Made by a program: the position numbers and the translations under genes | DNA from: Gracilinema caldarium DSM 7334 | Lineage (GTDB): Bacteria > Spirochaetota > Spirochaetia > Treponematales > Breznakiellaceae | NCBI RefSeq assembly: GCF_000219725.1 | Contig: NC_015732.1 | Coordinates: 1,488,001-1,552,000 of the forward strand | Length of the DNA stretch: 64,000 nucleotides | Direction of reading: 5' to 3' | Notes under the pieces: model-generated | The model's database searches: none | What the model saw: only the letters and a program-made list of their open reading frames with translations | Told to the model about the DNA's origin: nothing | In this document: in pieces, positions 10,608 through 21,305 of the stretch | Layout: the number at the start of each line of letters is the position of its first letter | Numbering within the stretch: the stretch's first letter is position 1

Positions 10608-10841
10608 ATGGTAAGCCCTAGGGATGCAGCAAAGACTATATGTGCAAAGAATGAAGCTGAGCTTGCTCGGATTACCCAACGGAGGGAACAAGCCCAGGCA
10701 GAGGGAAAAAGACTGGCAGAGAAGCTGTTACATGAATACCCAAACGCCCAGCGAGTGTGGGGGTTTGGATCAACCTATATGAAACAGACCCTTCTATACC
10801 GTTATAAACAGCTTTTCCTTATCTATCCCCTTGTCCCTTGA
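10608..10841 (+). pseudogene. 5' fragment of a nucleotidyltransferase gene, 77 aa
   Basis: The reading frame starts with an N-terminal helix and then RVWGFGSTY (about residues 49-57), the strand and Gly-Ser of the MNT nucleotide-binding motif. The aspartates that should follow are missing; the frame instead runs into about 20 unrelated residues and ends inside the 3' end of the convergent wecA gene (23-base overlap). It is therefore truncated and presumably inactive. Together with the preceding fragment it looks like the remains of an MNT gene pair. Confidence 0.5.
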
Positions 10842-11898
10842 GCATATGGCCCTTATGCATATAGTGCAGGACCGTAAAAAAGGCTATTCCCACGATATAA
10901 GCCGCTAGGAGCAGTATATACCGATAGTTTTGGGCCACCGTCAGGGCCAGGATCACCGCAATACCGATAAGTGTTTGGACTCCATATAAGAGGGCATCGA
11001 GCTGAGGGGCTGTTAATCCCAGGTTGATGAGCTTATGGTGGGTGTGTTCCCGGTCAGGAGTATAGATGGACCGGCCATCCCGGATCCGGCGCCACATGGC
11101 CGCAAAGGTATCAAAAATTGGGATCAGGGTCAGAGCCGCCGCAAAAGGGAGACCCACACCACGACCGGGCAATTCGTAGTTAAAGCCCATAAGGGGCATG
11201 AGAGCAATAATAAAGCCTAAAAACTGACTCCCCGTATCCCCCATAAAAATTTTTGCCCGCGGTGTAGGTGCATTAAAGACAAGAAAGCCCCCAATACCGG
11301 CGATAAGGAGGAGACAGAGCATTACCGCCTGCATATTTCCCTGATATGCATAAATAACCGCATAAGAGAGGAGAATAATAGATGAAACGCCGCCAGCTAG
11401 CCCATCAACCCCATCGATAAGATTAATAGCATTAATAATACCCACAATCCAGATAACAGAAATAAGAGGACCCGCAACACCTAAATTTAATTGTCCCCCT
11501 GTCCAGGGAAGTCCAATTATACGGAATTGGTACCCTGCAAAAACGACCAACAAAGCCGCAATCATCTGCACCAGTGCCTTATAGCGGGCTCGGAGGGGTT
11601 TAAAATCGTCCCAGATACCAAAGATAACGATAAATACCATAGCTACGAGCACCAGCACAAAGGAACCAGTTACCTGTTCCTTCCAGACTTCCATAACAGT
11701 AAGGATAATGATTACCATGAGATAGGCCGGAATAAAGGCTACGCCGCCCAAACGGGGAACCTGCCCGGTATGGATTTTCCGTTCATCAATATGATCAAAC
11801 CAGAAATACCGATGAGCCAGTTTGATAATAAGCTTTACCAGAAAGGCGGAAAATATAAAAGTTATGGCACATAAGCTGAGTACAAACAACAGGGTCAT
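10819..11898 (-). CDS. WecA/MraY-family glycosyl-1-phosphate transferase, 359 aa
   Basis: A polytopic membrane protein that transfers a sugar-1-phosphate from a UDP-sugar to undecaprenyl phosphate, starting a surface polysaccharide or teichoic-acid-like chain on the inner face of the cytoplasmic membrane. About ten hydrophobic segments are evident. Family motifs are NLIDGVDGLAGGVSS (about 160) and KIFMGDTGSQFLGF (about 215), plus the cytoplasmic loop RIRDGRSIYTPDREHTHHKL that marks the WecA/TagO subgroup rather than MraY. It neighbours the wzz remnant and the rhamnose genes, so an O-antigen-like role is likely. The predicted -10 box ends 6 bases before ATG 11898, suggesting a leaderless mRNA. 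Confidence 0.85.
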   Translation of the reverse strand: MTLLFVLSLCAITFIFSAFLVKLIIKLAHRYFWFDHIDERKIHTGQVPRLGGVAFIPAYLMVIIILTVMEVWKEQVTGSFVLVLVAMVFIVIFGIWDDFKPLRARYKALVQMIAALLVVFAGYQFRIIGLPWTGGQLNLGVAGPLISVIWIVGIINAINLIDGVDGLAGGVSSIILLSYAVIYAYQGNMQAVMLCLLLIAGIGGFLVFNAPTPRAKIFMGDTGSQFLGFIIALMPLMGFNYELPGRGVGLPFAAALTLIPIFDTFAAMWRRIRDGRSIYTPDREHTHHKLINLGLTAPQLDALLYGVQTLIGIAVILALTVAQNYRYILLLAAYIVGIAFFTVLHYMHKGHMLKGQGDR

Positions 11899-11970: not shown

Positions 11971-12115
11971 TTAGGCTTTCTTGGCGTGGGCCAGGGCCTC
12001 CCGAATTTTAGCCATGGCTTCCGGATCCTTGCGGATAGACTCAATCCATTCAAGCACAAAAGCTATAAACATCGCCAGGAAAAGAGCGCCAAAGGTTATA
12101 ATGAGCCCTGGAAAC
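11971..12115 (-). pseudogene. wzz: 3' remnant of a Wzz/GumC-type chain-length gene
   Basis: Read on the minus strand from the IS edge, the frame gives FPGLIITFGALFLAMFIAFV followed by LEWIESIRKDPEAMAKIREA and TAA at 11973-11971. A C-terminal membrane helix followed by a short charged cytoplasmic tail is how Wzz-family polysaccharide chain-length regulators end. Everything upstream, including the periplasmic domain and first membrane helix, is missing: the insertion element begins at about 12116. The family call is moderate because only ~47 residues remain; truncation at the IS edge is clear. Confidence 0.55.
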
Positions 12116-12188
12116 TGGGCCAAAAAAATGTAAAAATAAGGTGGTAGGAGTACAGAAATAACCTGCCTAACAGGAGGAAACTACCAAC

Positions 12189-12491
12189 ATGAGGAAACGA
12201 TACGATAAGGCATTTAAAGCGAAGGTGGCTCTCGAAGCCCTTCGCGGTGATAAAACGGTCCAGGAACTGGCAGCTCTTTATGAGGTTCATCCAAACATGG
12301 TGACCCTCTGGAAGAAACAGCTTCTTGAAGGAGCTGAAGTGCTCTTTGAAAAGCCAGGGAAGGATACGGAACGGCACGAGCTGGAGCAGAAACAGGATGA
12401 ACTGTATAAACAAATCGGTAAGCTCCAGATAGAGAACGAATTCTTAAAAAAAAAGTACAAACAATTGTACGGGACCGAACCGCCGCTATAG
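12189..12491 (+). CDS. IS3-family OrfA (helix-turn-helix), 100 aa
   Basis: The N-terminal DNA-binding part of the transposase. An HTH spans about residues 8-45 (YDKAFKAKVALEAL, then VQELAALYEVHPNMVTLWKK), followed by a leucine-zipper-like coiled coil (about 60-92) used for multimerisation. A Shine-Dalgarno (AGGAGG, about 12172-12177) precedes ATG 12189. Near the end of orfA lies A AAA AAG (12449-12455), the canonical -1 frameshift heptamer of IS3 elements; slippage yields the OrfAB transposase, while unshifted translation stops at 12491. Confidence 0.88.
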   Translation: MRKRYDKAFKAKVALEALRGDKTVQELAALYEVHPNMVTLWKKQLLEGAEVLFEKPGKDTERHELEQKQDELYKQIGKLQIENEFLKKKYKQLYGTEPPL

Positions 12492-13333
12492 AACCAGAAC
12501 ACCCGGTTTTATCGATACGAGACCAATGTCGAATACTAGGAATAAGTCGAGCGAGTTACTATTACAAAGCCGTAGAAAAGGACGAGGATAAAGACCTTGC
12601 CATTTTGAAGGCCATTCTGGAAGAGCTCAAAGTTCACCCGTTTTATGGGTATCGCAAAATAGCTCGTGCCTTAGCAGATATGGGGGTAACACGGAAACAG
12701 GTGCGTCGTATCATGCATAAAGCTGGTTTACGGGCCATATATCCCAAAAAACGGACCAATATGCAAGCAAAGGGCCACAAAAAGTACCCTTATTTGCTGA
12801 AAAACATGGTACTGTGGGTGCCTAACCAGGTATGGGCAACGGATAATATTACCTACCTTAAGCTTGGTAAGGGTTTTGTCTATCTCGTGGTCATACTTGA
12901 CCTGTATTCTCGTAAAATATTGTCCTGGAAAGTATCAAATACGATGGATACGGAGTTTTGTGTAGCAGCCCTTGAAGCAGCAATTACCCAATGGGGAATC
13001 CCTGCCATCTTCAATACTGATCAGGGTAGTCAGTTTACCAGCGATGCATTTATATCAGTCCTTGAATCCTACGGCATTCGTATCAGCATGGATAGCAAAA
13101 ACAGAGCCTTGGACAATATCTACATGGAACGGGTCTGGCGTACTATCAAGTACGAAGACATATATATCAAAGACTATCAGACTATGACAGAACTGAAGGA
13201 GGGCTTAGAAACCTATGTAACCTTTTACAACAGTAAACGGTATCATCAATCGTTGGACTATGCTACCCCAGATGAAATCTATGAACAGGCATTTAAGCGT
13301 ACTCAACCAATAGAGGAGGCTCTATCTGCCTAG
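12446..13333 (+). CDS. IS3-family OrfB, DDE transposase domain (made by -1 frameshift)
   Basis: The frame is open from the slippery A-run and has no credible start of its own; a TTG at 12605 is internal. The protein has the HTH_21-like segment (LKVHPFYGYRKIARALADMG) and then the rve integrase core. The catalytic residues are all present: D in VWATDNITYLKL, D in FNTDQGSQFTSD, and E in DNIYMERVWRTIKYE, with YHQSLDYATPDE at the C-terminus. No stop or frameshift disrupts the core, so the element may be active. The fused OrfAB would span 12189-13333. Confidence 0.88.
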   Translation, partial: KKKVQTIVRDRTAAIEPEHPVLSIRDQCRILGISRASYYYKAVEKDEDKDLAILKAILEELKVHPFYGYRKIARALADMGVTRKQVRRIMHKAGLRAIYPKKRTNMQAKGHKKYPYLLKNMVLWVPNQVWATDNITYLKLGKGFVYLVVILDLYSRKILSWKVSNTMDTEFCVAALEAAITQWGIPAIFNTDQGSQFTSDAFISVLESYGIRISMDSKNRALDNIYMERVWRTIKYEDIYIKDYQTMTELKEGLETYVTFYNSKRYHQSLDYATPDEIYEQAFKRTQPIEEALSA

Positions 13334-13382
13334 AACCCCTTACTCCTATCCACTTTATTTTTTCTTTAAAATGGTCTTGACA

Positions 13383-13478
13383 GCTGGGCTCACTATAAGC
13401 CGGGATGCGCTCATCAACCTGGCCCAGAGCTTTAAAACCGATTACGGCGCATATCTGCGCTATGTGGCGGAGCAGTAA
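13383..13478 (+). pseudogene. rfbA: 3' remnant of rfbA (glucose-1-phosphate thymidylyltransferase)
   Basis: Directly after the IS right end the plus-strand frame reads AGLTISRDALINLAQSFKTD followed by YGAYLRYVAEQ and TAA. This matches the C-terminal end of RfbA (helix ISREAL...LA, then a Y-G-x-Y-L tail). It is placed 2 bases before rfbC, exactly where rfbA would sit in an rfbACDB operon. About 90% of the gene is missing. The family call combines the motif and position, and I consider it likely. Confidence 0.65.
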
Positions 13479-13480
13479 CC

Positions 13481-14029
13481 ATGCCCATTACCGTAACCAG
13501 GCTCCCTATAGAAGGCCTCTTTATCATCCAACCAAAAGTCTTTGGTGATGCGAGGGGCTATTTTTTAGAGTCCTTCAATGAACGGGACTTTCACGACGCA
13601 GGCCTTACCATGCGCTTTGTGCAGGATAACCAATCCTTTTCCCGTAAAGGAGTCCTCCGAGGCCTTCATTTTCAGAAAAAGCATCCCCAGGGTAAACTGG
13701 TCAGGGTAATTCAAGGGGAAGTTTATGATGTAGCCGTCGATATAAGACCCGGTTCATCAACCTTTGGTCACTACTATGGCCTCATCCTGAGCGGTGAACA
13801 GCATAACCAGTTTTATATACCCCCAGGCTTTGCCCACGGCTTTGTGGTCCTTTCCGAAACTGCCCTATTTGCCTATAAATGTACCGACTACTACCACCCG
13901 GAAGACGAAGGGGGTATCCGCTGGAATGACCCTGAGTTAGCCATACCCTGGCCCCTCACCGATGTCCAAGTTTCCGCCAAGGATGCACAACTGCCATATT
14001 TTACAGCCCTACAAAAGGAACAACTATGA
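13481..14029 (+). CDS. rfbC: dTDP-4-dehydrorhamnose 3,5-epimerase, 182 aa
   Basis: Third enzyme of dTDP-L-rhamnose synthesis: it epimerises C3 and C5 of dTDP-4-keto-6-deoxyglucose. The cupin fold is recognisable from RGYFLESFNERDF, the catalytic-histidine segment GVLRGLHFQ, the strand KLVRVIQGEVYDVAVDIR and the C-terminal FAHGFVVLSETALFAYKCTDYY. Length is standard. The stop overlaps the rfbD start by four bases (ATGA). The upstream rfbA is only a remnant behind an insertion element, so its present promoter is unclear. Confidence 0.93.
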   Translation: MPITVTRLPIEGLFIIQPKVFGDARGYFLESFNERDFHDAGLTMRFVQDNQSFSRKGVLRGLHFQKKHPQGKLVRVIQGEVYDVAVDIRPGSSTFGHYYGLILSGEQHNQFYIPPGFAHGFVVLSETALFAYKCTDYYHPEDEGGIRWNDPELAIPWPLTDVQVSAKDAQLPYFTALQKEQL

Positions 14030-14898
14030 TTTGGATTGTTGGAAACCGGGGGATGCTCGGGACCGAGCTTACCCGATATCTCGAAGCCCAAGGGCTTCCT
14101 GTTGTTGGCACCGATCGGGAAGTGAGCTTTCTCGACACCGCCGCCCTCGAGACCTTTGTTCGCGATAAACCCATTACATGGATTATCAATTGTGCGGCCT
14201 ATACGGCGGTAGATAAAGCAGAAGACGAAGAAGACCTTGCCCTGCGCCTCAATGCCGAAGGCCCTGAAAACCTGGTACGCCTTGCAGCATCTCAGGGTGC
14301 CCGGCTCCTCCATATTTCTACGGACTATGTTTTTTCCGGTGTGCCTTATATAATTAATGGCAAGCCCCGCCCCTATGAGGTTGATGACCCTACAGGTCCT
14401 ACGGGCGCCTATGGGCGGACGAAGGAAGCCGGGGAGCGCCGAGTTATGAGTGCCGCGCCAGATTCCATCGTCCTTCGTACCGCCTGGCTTTACGGAGCCC
14501 ATGGCCCGAACTTTGTCTTTACCATGCTCCGCCTCATGAAAGAACGGGACAGCATCGGTGTTGTTGCAGACCAGCAGGGGAGTCCCACCTGGGCACGGGA
14601 CCTCGCCGCCGCGATCTATGGGCTCATCACAAAACCAGATGTACCAGCCGGCATTTACCACTTTACAAACGACGGCGAATGCTCCTGGTACGAGTTTGCC
14701 CTCGCCATCCATGACGAAGCCCGGAAGCTCGGCCTCCTTACAAAGGACTGCACCGTCCGCCCCCTCACCACCGACCAGTATCCTACTAAAGCCCGCCGCC
14801 CCGCCTATTCAGTCCTTTCCAAAGCAAAAATCAAATCCTTCGGCATCCCTGTCCCCGCCTGGCGGGAGAGCCTCGTGGAGTTTTTAAAGACACTATAA
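14026..14898 (+). CDS. rfbD: dTDP-4-dehydrorhamnose reductase, 290 aa
   Basis: Last enzyme of dTDP-L-rhamnose synthesis; it reduces the 4-keto group with NAD(P)H. A Rossmann motif GNRGMLGTELTRYL starts at residue 5, the short-chain dehydrogenase YxxxK is in GAYGRTKEAGE (about 127), and the family segments INCAAYTAVDKAEDEE and STDYVFSG are present. Length matches RmlD. It is translationally coupled to rfbC by an ATGA overlap, and rfbB follows after 24 bases. Confidence 0.93.
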   Translation: MIWIVGNRGMLGTELTRYLEAQGLPVVGTDREVSFLDTAALETFVRDKPITWIINCAAYTAVDKAEDEEDLALRLNAEGPENLVRLAASQGARLLHISTDYVFSGVPYIINGKPRPYEVDDPTGPTGAYGRTKEAGERRVMSAAPDSIVLRTAWLYGAHGPNFVFTMLRLMKERDSIGVVADQQGSPTWARDLAAAIYGLITKPDVPAGIYHFTNDGECSWYEFALAIHDEARKLGLLTKDCTVRPLTTDQYPTKARRPAYSVLSKAKIKSFGIPVPAWRESLVEFLKTL

Positions 14899-14922: not shown

Positions 14923-16041
14923 ATGCGCACGTTTAAGAACCTTTTAGTAACCGGTGGTGCTGGCTTTATCGGTTCTAACATGATCCGCTACCTTCTTACC
15001 GGGCCCTCAGGCTTTGCTGGCCGTATCATCAATCTGGACCTTCTTACCTATGCGGGCAACCCCGAAAGCCTTGCTGATATTGCTGAGCAGTATGGCAAAG
15101 GCACGAATCCACGTTATGTGTTTGTGCAGGGCGATATCTGCGACCGCGCCTTGGTGGAACGCATCTTTAAAGACTACGAGATTGATGGAGTGATCCACTT
15201 TGCGGCCGAAAGTCACGTGGACCGGTCTATTCTCGGGCCAGAGGCCTTTGTCCGCACCAACGTCATGGGCACCTTTGCGCTCCTCGATGTAGCCCGCACT
15301 GCCTGGGCTGGCCGCTATAGCCCCCACCATGGCTCCGCCTCTGCAGACAACAGCCCTGTGCTCTTCCATCATATTTCCACCGACGAAGTCTATGGGAGCC
15401 TTGGAGAAACGGGCTACTTTACCGAAACAACCCCCTACGATCCCCGCTCGCCCTATTCAGCAAGCAAAGCTGGAAGCGATCACCTTGTCATGGCCTATTG
15501 CCACACCTATGGGCTCCCGGTAACCCTCACGAATTGCTCTAATAACTATGGCCCCTATCAATTCCCGGAAAAACTTATCCCCCTCATGATTATGAACATG
15601 AACGAAGGGAAACCCCTCCCAGTCTATGGGGATGGCAAAAACATCCGGGACTGGCTCTATGTAGAGGACCACAATAGCGCGGTCTGGCTTGTGATGCAAA
15701 AGGGCAGGGTAGGGGAAAAATACAACATCGGCGGCGAAAACGAGTGGCAGAACATCGAACTCCTCCAGGAGCTCATCAATATAGTAGCCGAAGAAACCGG
15801 CAAACCCGCCGATAGCCTTCGCGCACTCATCACCTATGTCAAAGACCGCCCCGGTCATGACCGCCGCTATGCCATCGACTGCACGAAGCTCAAAACTGAA
15901 CTTGGCTGGAAACAGTCAGTAAGCTTCTCCGAAGGCCTCCGCCGCACCGTCCGCTGGTACCTCACGAACCCCACCTGGGTCGAGCATGTCCGCAGTGGTT
16001 CCTACCGCGACTGGATCGAAAAGAATTACGAGAAGCGGTGA
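14923..16041 (+). CDS. rfbB: dTDP-glucose 4,6-dehydratase, 372 aa
   Basis: Second enzyme of dTDP-L-rhamnose synthesis. The NAD-binding motif TGGAGFIGSN is near residue 10, the catalytic Thr/Asp/Glu segment is HISTDEVYGSLGE, and the YxxxK motif is in SPYSASKAGSDH. NCSNNYGPYQFPEKLIPLMI and GDGKNIRDWLYVEDH are further family signatures. The protein is about 15-20 residues longer than E. coli RfbB because of an insertion before HISTDEVYG (around AGRYSPHHGSASADN). It ends the rfb cluster; the ~110 bases after it hold only the hepT promoter. Confidence 0.94.
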   Translation: MRTFKNLLVTGGAGFIGSNMIRYLLTGPSGFAGRIINLDLLTYAGNPESLADIAEQYGKGTNPRYVFVQGDICDRALVERIFKDYEIDGVIHFAAESHVDRSILGPEAFVRTNVMGTFALLDVARTAWAGRYSPHHGSASADNSPVLFHHISTDEVYGSLGETGYFTETTPYDPRSPYSASKAGSDHLVMAYCHTYGLPVTLTNCSNNYGPYQFPEKLIPLMIMNMNEGKPLPVYGDGKNIRDWLYVEDHNSAVWLVMQKGRVGEKYNIGGENEWQNIELLQELINIVAEETGKPADSLRALITYVKDRPGHDRRYAIDCTKLKTELGWKQSVSFSEGLRRTVRWYLTNPTWVEHVRSGSYRDWIEKNYEKR

Positions 16042-16115: not shown

Positions 16116-16144
16116 TTGACAAGACCAGCGATTGCAGATACCTT
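16116..16144 (+). promoter_or_regulatory. Promoter of the HEPN/MNT pair (leaderless type)
   Basis: A consensus TTGACA (16116-16121), a 17-base spacer and a weak TACCTT (16139-16144) stand 7 bases before ATG 16152. No Shine-Dalgarno is present. The TTG of the -35 box is in frame with the gene and could be mistaken for a start codon. Confidence 0.45.
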
Positions 16145-16151
16145 TCCAAGT

Positions 16152-16646
16152 ATGATCGATATTGAGCATATCGTAGCTGAGCGTATTGCTAAACTCGACC
16201 GCCACATTACTGCTTTTACAGCCTACAAAAAGCTCATAGATCAGCTAATGCTTGAAAAACCGGTGTTTCAGCCCGATCTGTTCGAACAGCTTAAGCCCGA
16301 AGAAAAGGCAATTTTCGATGCCTATCTTAAACGGTTTGCATCAATTCAGGATTATCTTGGTGCTAAAATCTTTCCGGCTATCTTGGATCTGGCAGGTATT
16401 GGCGCTCAATCGCTCAGTGAGGTGCTTGCAATCATTGAAAAAGAGGGGATTATTGATAACCTGGAGACCTGGATAGGATTACGAGAAGCAAGAAACCATT
16501 TGGAACATGATTATCCTGCAGAAATGGAACAGGCCCTTCTGGACTTACAGTTCTGCATAAACCATTATACCACAATCATGAATTACTACAATAACGTAAA
16601 ACAGTTTATCGCAAAATACGGATTCGGTAACCATGCGGATTCCTGA
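16152..16646 (+). CDS. hepT: HEPN-domain toxin (HepT-like), 164 aa
   Basis: A four-helix HEPN protein, the probable RNase toxin of a type VII HEPN/MNT toxin-antitoxin pair. The signature Rx4HxY is intact: R114, H119 and Y121 in REARNHLEHDYP. In the characterised HepT/MntA system the antitoxin AMPylates that tyrosine; transfer of the mechanism here is inference. I start at ATG 16152 because the upstream in-frame TTG belongs to the promoter. Its end overlaps the MNT start by 14 bases, the usual arrangement. The pair lies just before the phosphonate cassette, and may stabilise this island or act in phage defence. Confidence 0.8.
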   Translation: MIDIEHIVAERIAKLDRHITAFTAYKKLIDQLMLEKPVFQPDLFEQLKPEEKAIFDAYLKRFASIQDYLGAKIFPAILDLAGIGAQSLSEVLAIIEKEGIIDNLETWIGLREARNHLEHDYPAEMEQALLDLQFCINHYTTIMNYYNNVKQFIAKYGFGNHADS

Positions 16647-16980
16647 ATCGTTAAAACGAGAGCTTGTTGCATCAATACATAGGTTTTTTGGTCCAGTTCC
16701 TATTATTATCTTTGGTAGCCGGGTTCATGACGAAAAACGTGGGGGGGATATCGATATTGCTCTTAAAATTGATATACCCCCTGCAGAATTTGAACAGAAA
16801 CGGATAGAACTTCTTGCTCATCTTACCAGAAAGAGCTTTCCCCTGCCGTTAGATCTGGTCCAGTATGGTCCCTCCCTGCCACCCCTCCTGCGTCAGGAAA
16901 TTGACCGGGAAGGGGTCCTGCTGAATCCACTTTACTGTGGCAGAGACGGATTGGCTGAAAATACATTACATATAAATTGA
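16633..16980 (+). CDS. mntA: MNT-fold nucleotidyltransferase antitoxin (MntA-like), 115 aa
   Basis: A minimal nucleotidyltransferase. The active-site motif is FGSRVHDEKRGGDIDIAL: Gly-Ser at 28-29 and the metal-binding aspartates at 39 and 41, with nine residues between (one fewer than the common GSx10DxD). The C-terminal strand and helix (LDLVQYGPSLPPLLRQEIDR) complete the fold. It overlaps hepT by 14 bases and its TGA overlaps the -35 box of the phosphonate promoter. A diverged copy of its 3' end (about 60 bp) recurs at 21355-21420, on the other side of the phosphonate cassette. Confidence 0.82.
   Translation: MRIPESLKRELVASIHRFFGPVPIIIFGSRVHDEKRGGDIDIALKIDIPPAEFEQKRIELLAHLTRKSFPLPLDLVQYGPSLPPLLRQEIDREGVLLNPLYCGRDGLAENTLHIN
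16856..16915 (+). repeat. Direct repeat copy A (mntA 3' end), left of phosphonate cassette
   Basis: Bases 16861-16910 match 21361-21410 at 42 of 50 positions, in the same orientation exactly 4500 bases apart. Copy A is coding within mntA; copy B is a relic. The two bracket the three phosphonate genes. Confidence 0.75.
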
Positions 16981-17063: not shown

Positions 17064-18361
17064 GTGCCAATTGTCTATTTAGGAATGATAGGTGATATTA
17101 TTCATCCTGGGATTGTTAATATTGTAAGAGAAGCATCAAAACACGGAGACGTGCTCGTGGGGCTTTTCACCGACAAGGCTATTGCCAGCCATAAGCGATT
17201 ACCCTATTTAAGTTATGAACAACGTCGTGAGGTTGTAGAGAACTTAAAAGGAGTTTCCAGGGTTGTTCCTCAGGATGAATGGTCCTATGTTCCCAACTTA
17301 CGTAAATATCGTCCTGATTTTATTATTCATGGGGATGATTGGAAAAATGGTCCTGAAAGCTCTCTCCGGGAAGAAGTCTTTGCAGTTATGGCTGAACTCG
17401 GGGGGAGTGTTATTGAAATACCTTACACAAAGGGGATTAACTCGAGTGCCCTTAATGAAAGTCTCAAAGCCATTGGGACTACGCCTGAAATACGCATGAA
17501 GACCCTCAGGCGACTTTTAGCCGCAAAACCTATCGTACGAGTTCTAGAAGCCCATTCAGGTTTGTCCGGGCTTATTGTAGAAAATATCGAATTCGAGGCC
17601 CCCGATGGTAAGCGATTCTTCGATGCCATGTGGTCATCCAGTTTAACCGATTCTACCGTAAAGGGTAAGCCGGATATAGAAGCGGTAGATTTGACATCAC
17701 GGCTACAGAATTTAACCGACATATTAGAATGTACAACAAAACCTATTATTTTTGATGGAGATACCGGTGGGCTCGAAGAACACTTTGTGTTTACTGTCCG
17801 CACCCTTGAACGTCATGGAGTTTCAGCGGTAATTATTGAAGATAAGGTTGGCCTCAAGAAAAACTCCCTTTTTGGGACTGAAGTTAAACAGGAATTAGCT
17901 CCAATTGATGAATTTTGTTCTAAAATTAGTGCCGGAAAACGTGCACAGGTAACAAAAGACTTTATGATTATTGCCCGCATCGAAAGCCTTATTGCCGGAA
18001 GGGATGTGAATGAGGCACTTACCCGGGCCAGGTCCTATGTTGCCGCCGGTGCTGATGGTATTATGATACATAGTAAAGAAAAATCGGGTAATGACATTAA
18101 GGAATTCTGTCTATCCTTTAGGAAAGACTATCCTCATGTTCCGCTCGTATTGGTACCTACGACCTATAATCGTTTTACCGAAGATGAACTAGCATCCTGG
18201 GGGGCAAGCATTATAATTTATGCAAATCATTTACTTCGTGCTTCCTACCCTGCTATGGTAAAAGCAGCAGAGCTAATTCTTGCCAATAAACGATCCCTCG
18301 AAGCTGATGAAATTTGTATGCCTATAAAAGAAATTCTAGAATTAATTCCGGAGACAAAATA

Positions 18362-18362
<1 letters not shown>
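17064..18362 (+). CDS. pepM: Phosphoenolpyruvate mutase with N-terminal nucleotidyltransferase-like domain, 432 aa
   Basis: Forms the C-P bond: it rearranges phosphoenolpyruvate to phosphonopyruvate, the entry step of phosphonate biosynthesis. The C-terminal PepM domain (about 135-432, isocitrate-lyase superfamily) has the diagnostic EDKxGxKxNS as EDKVGLKKNS (about 259-268), the metal-binding FDGDTGG segment and IARIESLIAGRDVNEAL. The N-terminal ~130 residues resemble glycerol-3-phosphate cytidylyltransferases (VYLGMIGDIIHPGIVNIV), but the catalytic HxGH reads HPGI, so this domain may be inactive. GTG 17064 follows GAGGAG by 7 bases; the out-of-frame ATG at 17062 is a decoy. The stop overlaps the next ATG (TAATG). 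Confidence 0.93.

Positions 18363-21305
<2,943 letters not shown>

Follow-up and report, generated by a model that had tools for sequence, protein, structure and literature searches.

Deletions associated with insertion sequences (IS) have been described in three populations of the E. coli long-term evolution lines, where 14 of the 14 cases examined involve IS150, a member of the IS3 family; these deletions are without target duplications and are explained as adjacent deletions (PMC11708052). The locus described here lies in a 64,000-nucleotide stretch of DNA (the window), corresponding to positions 1,488,001-1,552,000 of the single-contig genome of Gracilinema caldarium DSM 7334 (3,239,340 bases). 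As in the IS150 deletions, an IS3-family element stands in the center, a duplication is lacking and genes are cut on both sides. In contrast, a hybrid IS of diverged subtypes is not described in the sections of that report drawn on here (PMC11708052), whereas the IS in the window has a structure suggestive of two recombined copies. With regard to gene content, the surface-glycan clusters of related genomes of the spirochaete order (for example L174, L182 and L183) likewise combine wzz, wecA and rfbA-rfbC-rfbD-rfbB; in the window, however, wzz and rfbA are present as 3' ends only, which diverge from the IS, and the genome keeps a second complete rfb locus.

Gene fragments on either side of the IS

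The gene order is wecA (minus strand), wzz remnant (minus), IS3-family element, rfbA remnant and rfbC-rfbD-rfbB (plus), with the following features:

10819-11898, minus strand: intact wecA-like gene of glycosyltransferase family 4, situated downstream of the wzz remnant (PF00953, 140 bits)
11971-12096, minus strand: wzz remnant comprising the final 41 codons and the stop (C-terminus of a same-genus Wzz ORF matched at 67% over 36 aa)
12097-13397, plus strand: IS3-family element, hybrid of two subtypes, with ends TATAATGAGCCC and GGGCTCACTATA (compared with two complete copies that have 3-bp target duplications)
12189-12491, plus strand: IS orfA (PF01527 HTH_Tnp_1, 34.9 bits)
12422-13333, plus strand: IS orfB open frame (PF00665 rve, 90.8 bits; NCBIfam NF033516 IS3 transposase, 234.5 bits, cut-off 160)
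13398-13478, plus strand: rfbA remnant comprising the final 26 codons and the stop (similarity to intact RfbA, score 108; synteny with rfbC)
13481-14029, plus strand: rfbC, intact (PF00908, 247.8 bits)
14026-14898, plus strand: rfbD, intact (PF04321, 321.7 bits)
14923-16041, plus strand: rfbB, intact (PF16363, 318.4 bits)
Within 17064-21305: phosphoenolpyruvate (PEP) mutase carrying a cytidylyltransferase-like domain at its N-terminus
Within 17064-21305: phosphonopyruvate decarboxylase
Within 17064-21305: nucleotidyltransferase fused to aminoethylphosphonate (AEP) aminotransferase

A preliminary description of this DNA had placed an IS3 element between two 5'-truncated genes, and this arrangement is borne out by the families of orfA and orfB and by the direct junction of the element to the 3' ends of wzz and rfbA. 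Since Pfam gave no informative match for the wzz and rfbA fragments alone, their identities rest on relatives.

The left fragment had been taken for a minus-strand wzz-like gene reduced to its C-terminal helix and tail, an assignment with which our comparisons agree. Its translation, TFGALFLAMFIAFVLEWIESIRKDPEAMAKIREALAHAKKA followed by a stop, consists of a hydrophobic helix and then RKDPEAMAKIREAL. Among 197 genomes of the order, it matches the C-terminal ends of ORFs about 300-400 aa in length, best (E 3e-11) that of the same-genus ORF, the N-terminus of which lies above the cut-off for Wzz (PF02706, 34.6 bits). A Wzz profile of length 323, built from nine such proteins, found a sole match in the genome, namely the window fragment at profile positions 279-322; the search recovered the 5' part of wzz nowhere in the genome, and an intact wzz was likewise not found there. 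Of the features of Wzz (PF02706), the C-terminal tail alone remains, matching the corresponding region of ORFs in which the N-terminal domain is present. These matches identify the left fragment as the probable 3' end of a wzz. Genome position 2010597 gave another, weak match to the tail, which was rejected as Wzz, as it is situated among housekeeping genes and was missed by the profile. In two congeners, wzz belongs to an operon of ABC permeases, a LolA-like protein, an outer-membrane protein and wzz; the LolA-like protein has only one relative in the present genome, at 29%.

On the right, the rfbA remnant reads SRDALINLAQSFKTDYGAYLRYVAEQ up to its stop. Alignment with the C-terminus of the intact RfbA encoded at 572.7 kb gave the score of 108 listed above, compared with at most 58 in 500 shuffles, and the fragment ends 2 bp before rfbC, the same spacing as at the intact locus. 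The earlier reading of an rfbA remnant before rfbC is correct as to identity and not as to length: instead of 31 codons, it has 26 plus the stop, the rest being part of the IS. With these 26 C-terminal codons left, the nucleotidyltransferase domain of RfbA/RmlA is missing, and the window rfbA is a pseudogene remnant rather than a working member of the family. Its 5' part was not found elsewhere in the 3.24-Mb genome and is gone, because the sole close RfbA in the genome is the intact one (RmlA equivalog, 478 bits).

The best NCBIfam match of the wecA-like gene is TIGR02380 ECA_wecA, the score of 153.5 bits being below that model's cut-off, and a scan of genome contigs for wecA gave matches from other phyla only. 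Beside its 3' end, a nucleotidyltransferase-like gene start at 10608-10841 breaks off; it resembles over 57 aa an intact 126-aa protein of a relative (G018), and the break is a possible second scar. At the other side of the rfb genes, an overlapping pair at 16116-16980, between rfbB and the phosphonate genes, encodes a 176-aa protein, which had no match in a Pfam search, and a nucleotidyltransferase (PF18765), in a layout resembling that of HEPN/MNT toxin-antitoxin pairs. The AEP gene set of 17064-21305, directly past the rfb genes, resembles the phosphonate tailoring of cell surfaces reported in PMC6697681.

Structure and sister copies of the IS3-family element

The gene content of the element is that of the IS3 family, with an HTH-type orfA and an orfB that carries the rve integrase core and lies in the -1 frame relative to orfA, with a slippery A9-G run at 12446. 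The related ends TATAATGAGCCC/TACGGTGAGCCC and the 3-bp duplications of two sister copies likewise agree with this family. A search for additional copies, proposed in the preliminary description, was successful in that two complete type A copies and one degraded type B copy were found. The former two and the segments into which the window copy can be divided are:

Genome 1049.4-1050.7 and 2455.6-2456.9 kb: L010 and L011, complete type A copies with perfect 3-bp target duplications (GGC, ATA)
12097-12495, plus strand: type A segment (2 mismatches in 399 positions to the complete copies)
12496-12616 (IS bases 400-520): diverged segment (19 differences from type A)
12617-12758 (IS bases 521-662): type A patch within the B part (0 differences from type A)
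12759-13397, plus strand (IS bases 663-1301): diverged, type B-like segment (94 differences from type A)

The identity of L010 and L011 to each other over 1298 bp, together with their intact target duplications, suggests that they moved by recent transposition. The ends of the element, TATAATGAGCCC...GGGCTCACCGTA, were fixed from the target duplications of both copies, and the same rule delimits a window copy of 1301 bp, the right end of which is uncertain by up to 3 bases because the final IS bases also suit the rfbA codon expected there. TATAA on either side of a shorter-defined element was rejected as a target duplication: copies with unrelated flanks likewise start with TATAATGAGCCC, so TATAA belongs to the end of the IS. 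The window copy is flanked by GGT and AGC, in accordance with the earlier statement that it lacks a target duplication. Among the three complete copies it is the only one without such a duplication and also the only mosaic.

Divergence of the window copy from the two other complete copies is about 9%; over the right 639 bp, identity to type A falls to 85%. The reference for type B is L012, the degraded copy (786.6-787.3 kb), from which alone this type is known; its divergence from type A is roughly equal in the two parts it retains, and a survey of 100 genomes of the family yielded no clean type B IS. At sites informative for the two types, the left part of the window copy is type A in 15 of 15 cases and the right part is type B in 69 of 90 (16 A, 5 neither). 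A single-breakpoint model improved the log likelihood by 36 units, compared with at most 9 in 500 shuffles. The left and right parts of the element match different subtypes, as recombination between two such copies would produce, the right part being judged by the degraded L012. The A-like patch at 12617-12758 exceeds the pattern of one crossover, and gene conversion has therefore acted on this IS at least once.

Origin of the junction and size of the loss

The wzz-IS-rfbA junction is probably a deletion scar that arose by recombination between two IS3-type copies. In an O-antigen-like gene cluster, wzz would have received a type A copy and rfbA a type B copy in the same orientation; homologous recombination between the two would have removed all intervening DNA, and the surviving element would be a hybrid, its left end (in wzz) from type A and its right end (in rfbA) from type B, without a target duplication. 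We infer the two parental insertions, their direct orientation, the single deletion step and what was lost with it. Directly visible in the DNA are both truncations, the lack of a duplication and the A/B mosaic, and the lost 5' parts were not found in the genome; a single IS with different genes cut on its two sides is what two-copy recombination should leave. A deletion scar rather than a single insertion had been proposed before, and with good reason: after a simple insertion, the halves of a single target should flank the IS, together with a duplication, whereas the two flanks of this IS belong to different genes, the missing parts of which were not found elsewhere in the single-contig genome and hence were deleted rather than moved. 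Between the two mechanisms named at that time, recombination of two IS copies and IS-adjacent deletion, the former is favored by the mosaic of diverged subtypes in the IS.

IS-adjacent deletion is the main rival, albeit an unlikely one. One IS would have resided in wzz or rfbA and its transposase would have removed flanking DNA up to the other gene, the mosaic being older or stemming from later gene conversion with other copies. Such deletions are documented for IS150 and likewise leave no duplication (PMC11708052); moreover, the A-like patch in the B part shows that conversion occurs, and we keep this explanation since conversion could have made the hybrid later. It predicts, however, neither a hybrid nor that the sole duplication-less copy of three should be the mosaic. 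The arrangement of the genes speaks against two-copy recombination to some extent, as do the A-like patch and the degraded state of the sole type B reference. In relatives, wzz occurs in clusters that contain wecA or rfbA, in some cases immediately preceding rfbA, and in the cases inspected these genes share one strand; the window layout is divergent, and its only parallel is the placement of wecA and rfbA at the second locus. The same divergence, together with the presence of several IS copies in the genome, would suit an inversion or translocation between IS copies, with the missing gene parts now residing elsewhere. This is highly improbable and largely refuted by the genome-wide absence of the 5' parts of wzz and rfbA, and both other complete IS copies keep intact target duplications. 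An assembly misjoin is barely credible: IS copies are classic points of misassembly, yet in that event the remaining halves of both genes should be present at another site, and neither was found; in addition, the genome is a single contig in which divergence from the other complete copies aids placement of this one.

An intact wzz-...-rfbA segment, for which comparison with relatives had been recommended, did not turn up in the genomes searched (one genome per species). Recombination between two IS copies would account for the loss of rfbA and of most of wzz, as had been stated; the extent of the loss may have been understated. At the paralogous locus, about 24 kb separate rfbA (572.7 kb) from a truncated wecA that retains its 5' part (547.9 kb, 78%), and this stretch mostly contains sugar-synthesis, transferase-like and transport-like genes (named by eye, partly Pfam-checked). 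As this locus and relatives suggest, the loss may have included other glycan genes beyond rfbA and wzz.

The second glycan locus and consequences for the cell

The search for another rfbA, suggested in the preliminary description, revealed one intact copy at 572.7 kb. It is part of a complete rfbA-rfbC-rfbD-rfbB set (572.7-577.4 kb) in which all genes are open and which shares 80-82% DNA identity with the rfb block of the window where alignable. When L009:4729-6143 is set against L180:66-1501 from a genome of another family of the order, the RfbA encoded at the second locus is 89% identical to its counterpart and the adjacent RfbC only about 57% to its neighbor in L180, a comparison for which the RfbC paralog of the window was used; from this contrast, the second rfb operon looks as if it were itself mosaic.

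The second glycan locus is damaged as well. Its wecA (L077:11849-12262; about 547.85-548.26 kb) is reduced to the 5' third, with 78% identity over residues 5-126, and the cut end adjoins an SNF2/helicase-like reading frame. In addition, two overlapping hydrophobic frames (L078:7223-8529), without match in a Pfam search, resemble one membrane protein broken by a frameshift, perhaps a Wzy-type polymerase.

The window locus keeps wecA, rfbCDB and the aminoethylphosphonate set and is without intact rfbA or wzz. The preliminary description left two alternatives for rhamnose synthesis, reliance on an rfbA at another site or loss of the pathway. The first alternative applies, as the intact set at 572.7-577.4 kb shows, and for this reason loss is not expected: as far as gene content tells, the pathway can probably be completed by the rfbA of the second locus. 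The effect of the missing intact Wzz depends on whether the cell polymerizes the window glycan. A rather doubtful but conceivable reading is that a polymerized surface glycan has been dismantled piecemeal and that the cell may make only short glycans from parts of both loci, given that the window cluster lost wzz and rfbA by the scar and the other has a truncated wecA and an apparently frameshifted polymerase-like gene.

For the interpretation of such loci, a missing pathway gene calls for a genome-wide check: rhamnose is covered by the second set, and no intact Wzz was found. The event belongs to an ordinary class of genome decay, for which the evidence on the recombination route is better than usual. 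The locus offers a clean natural example in which two diverged copies of one IS would have deleted part of a glycan cluster, the crossover being recorded in the surviving element.
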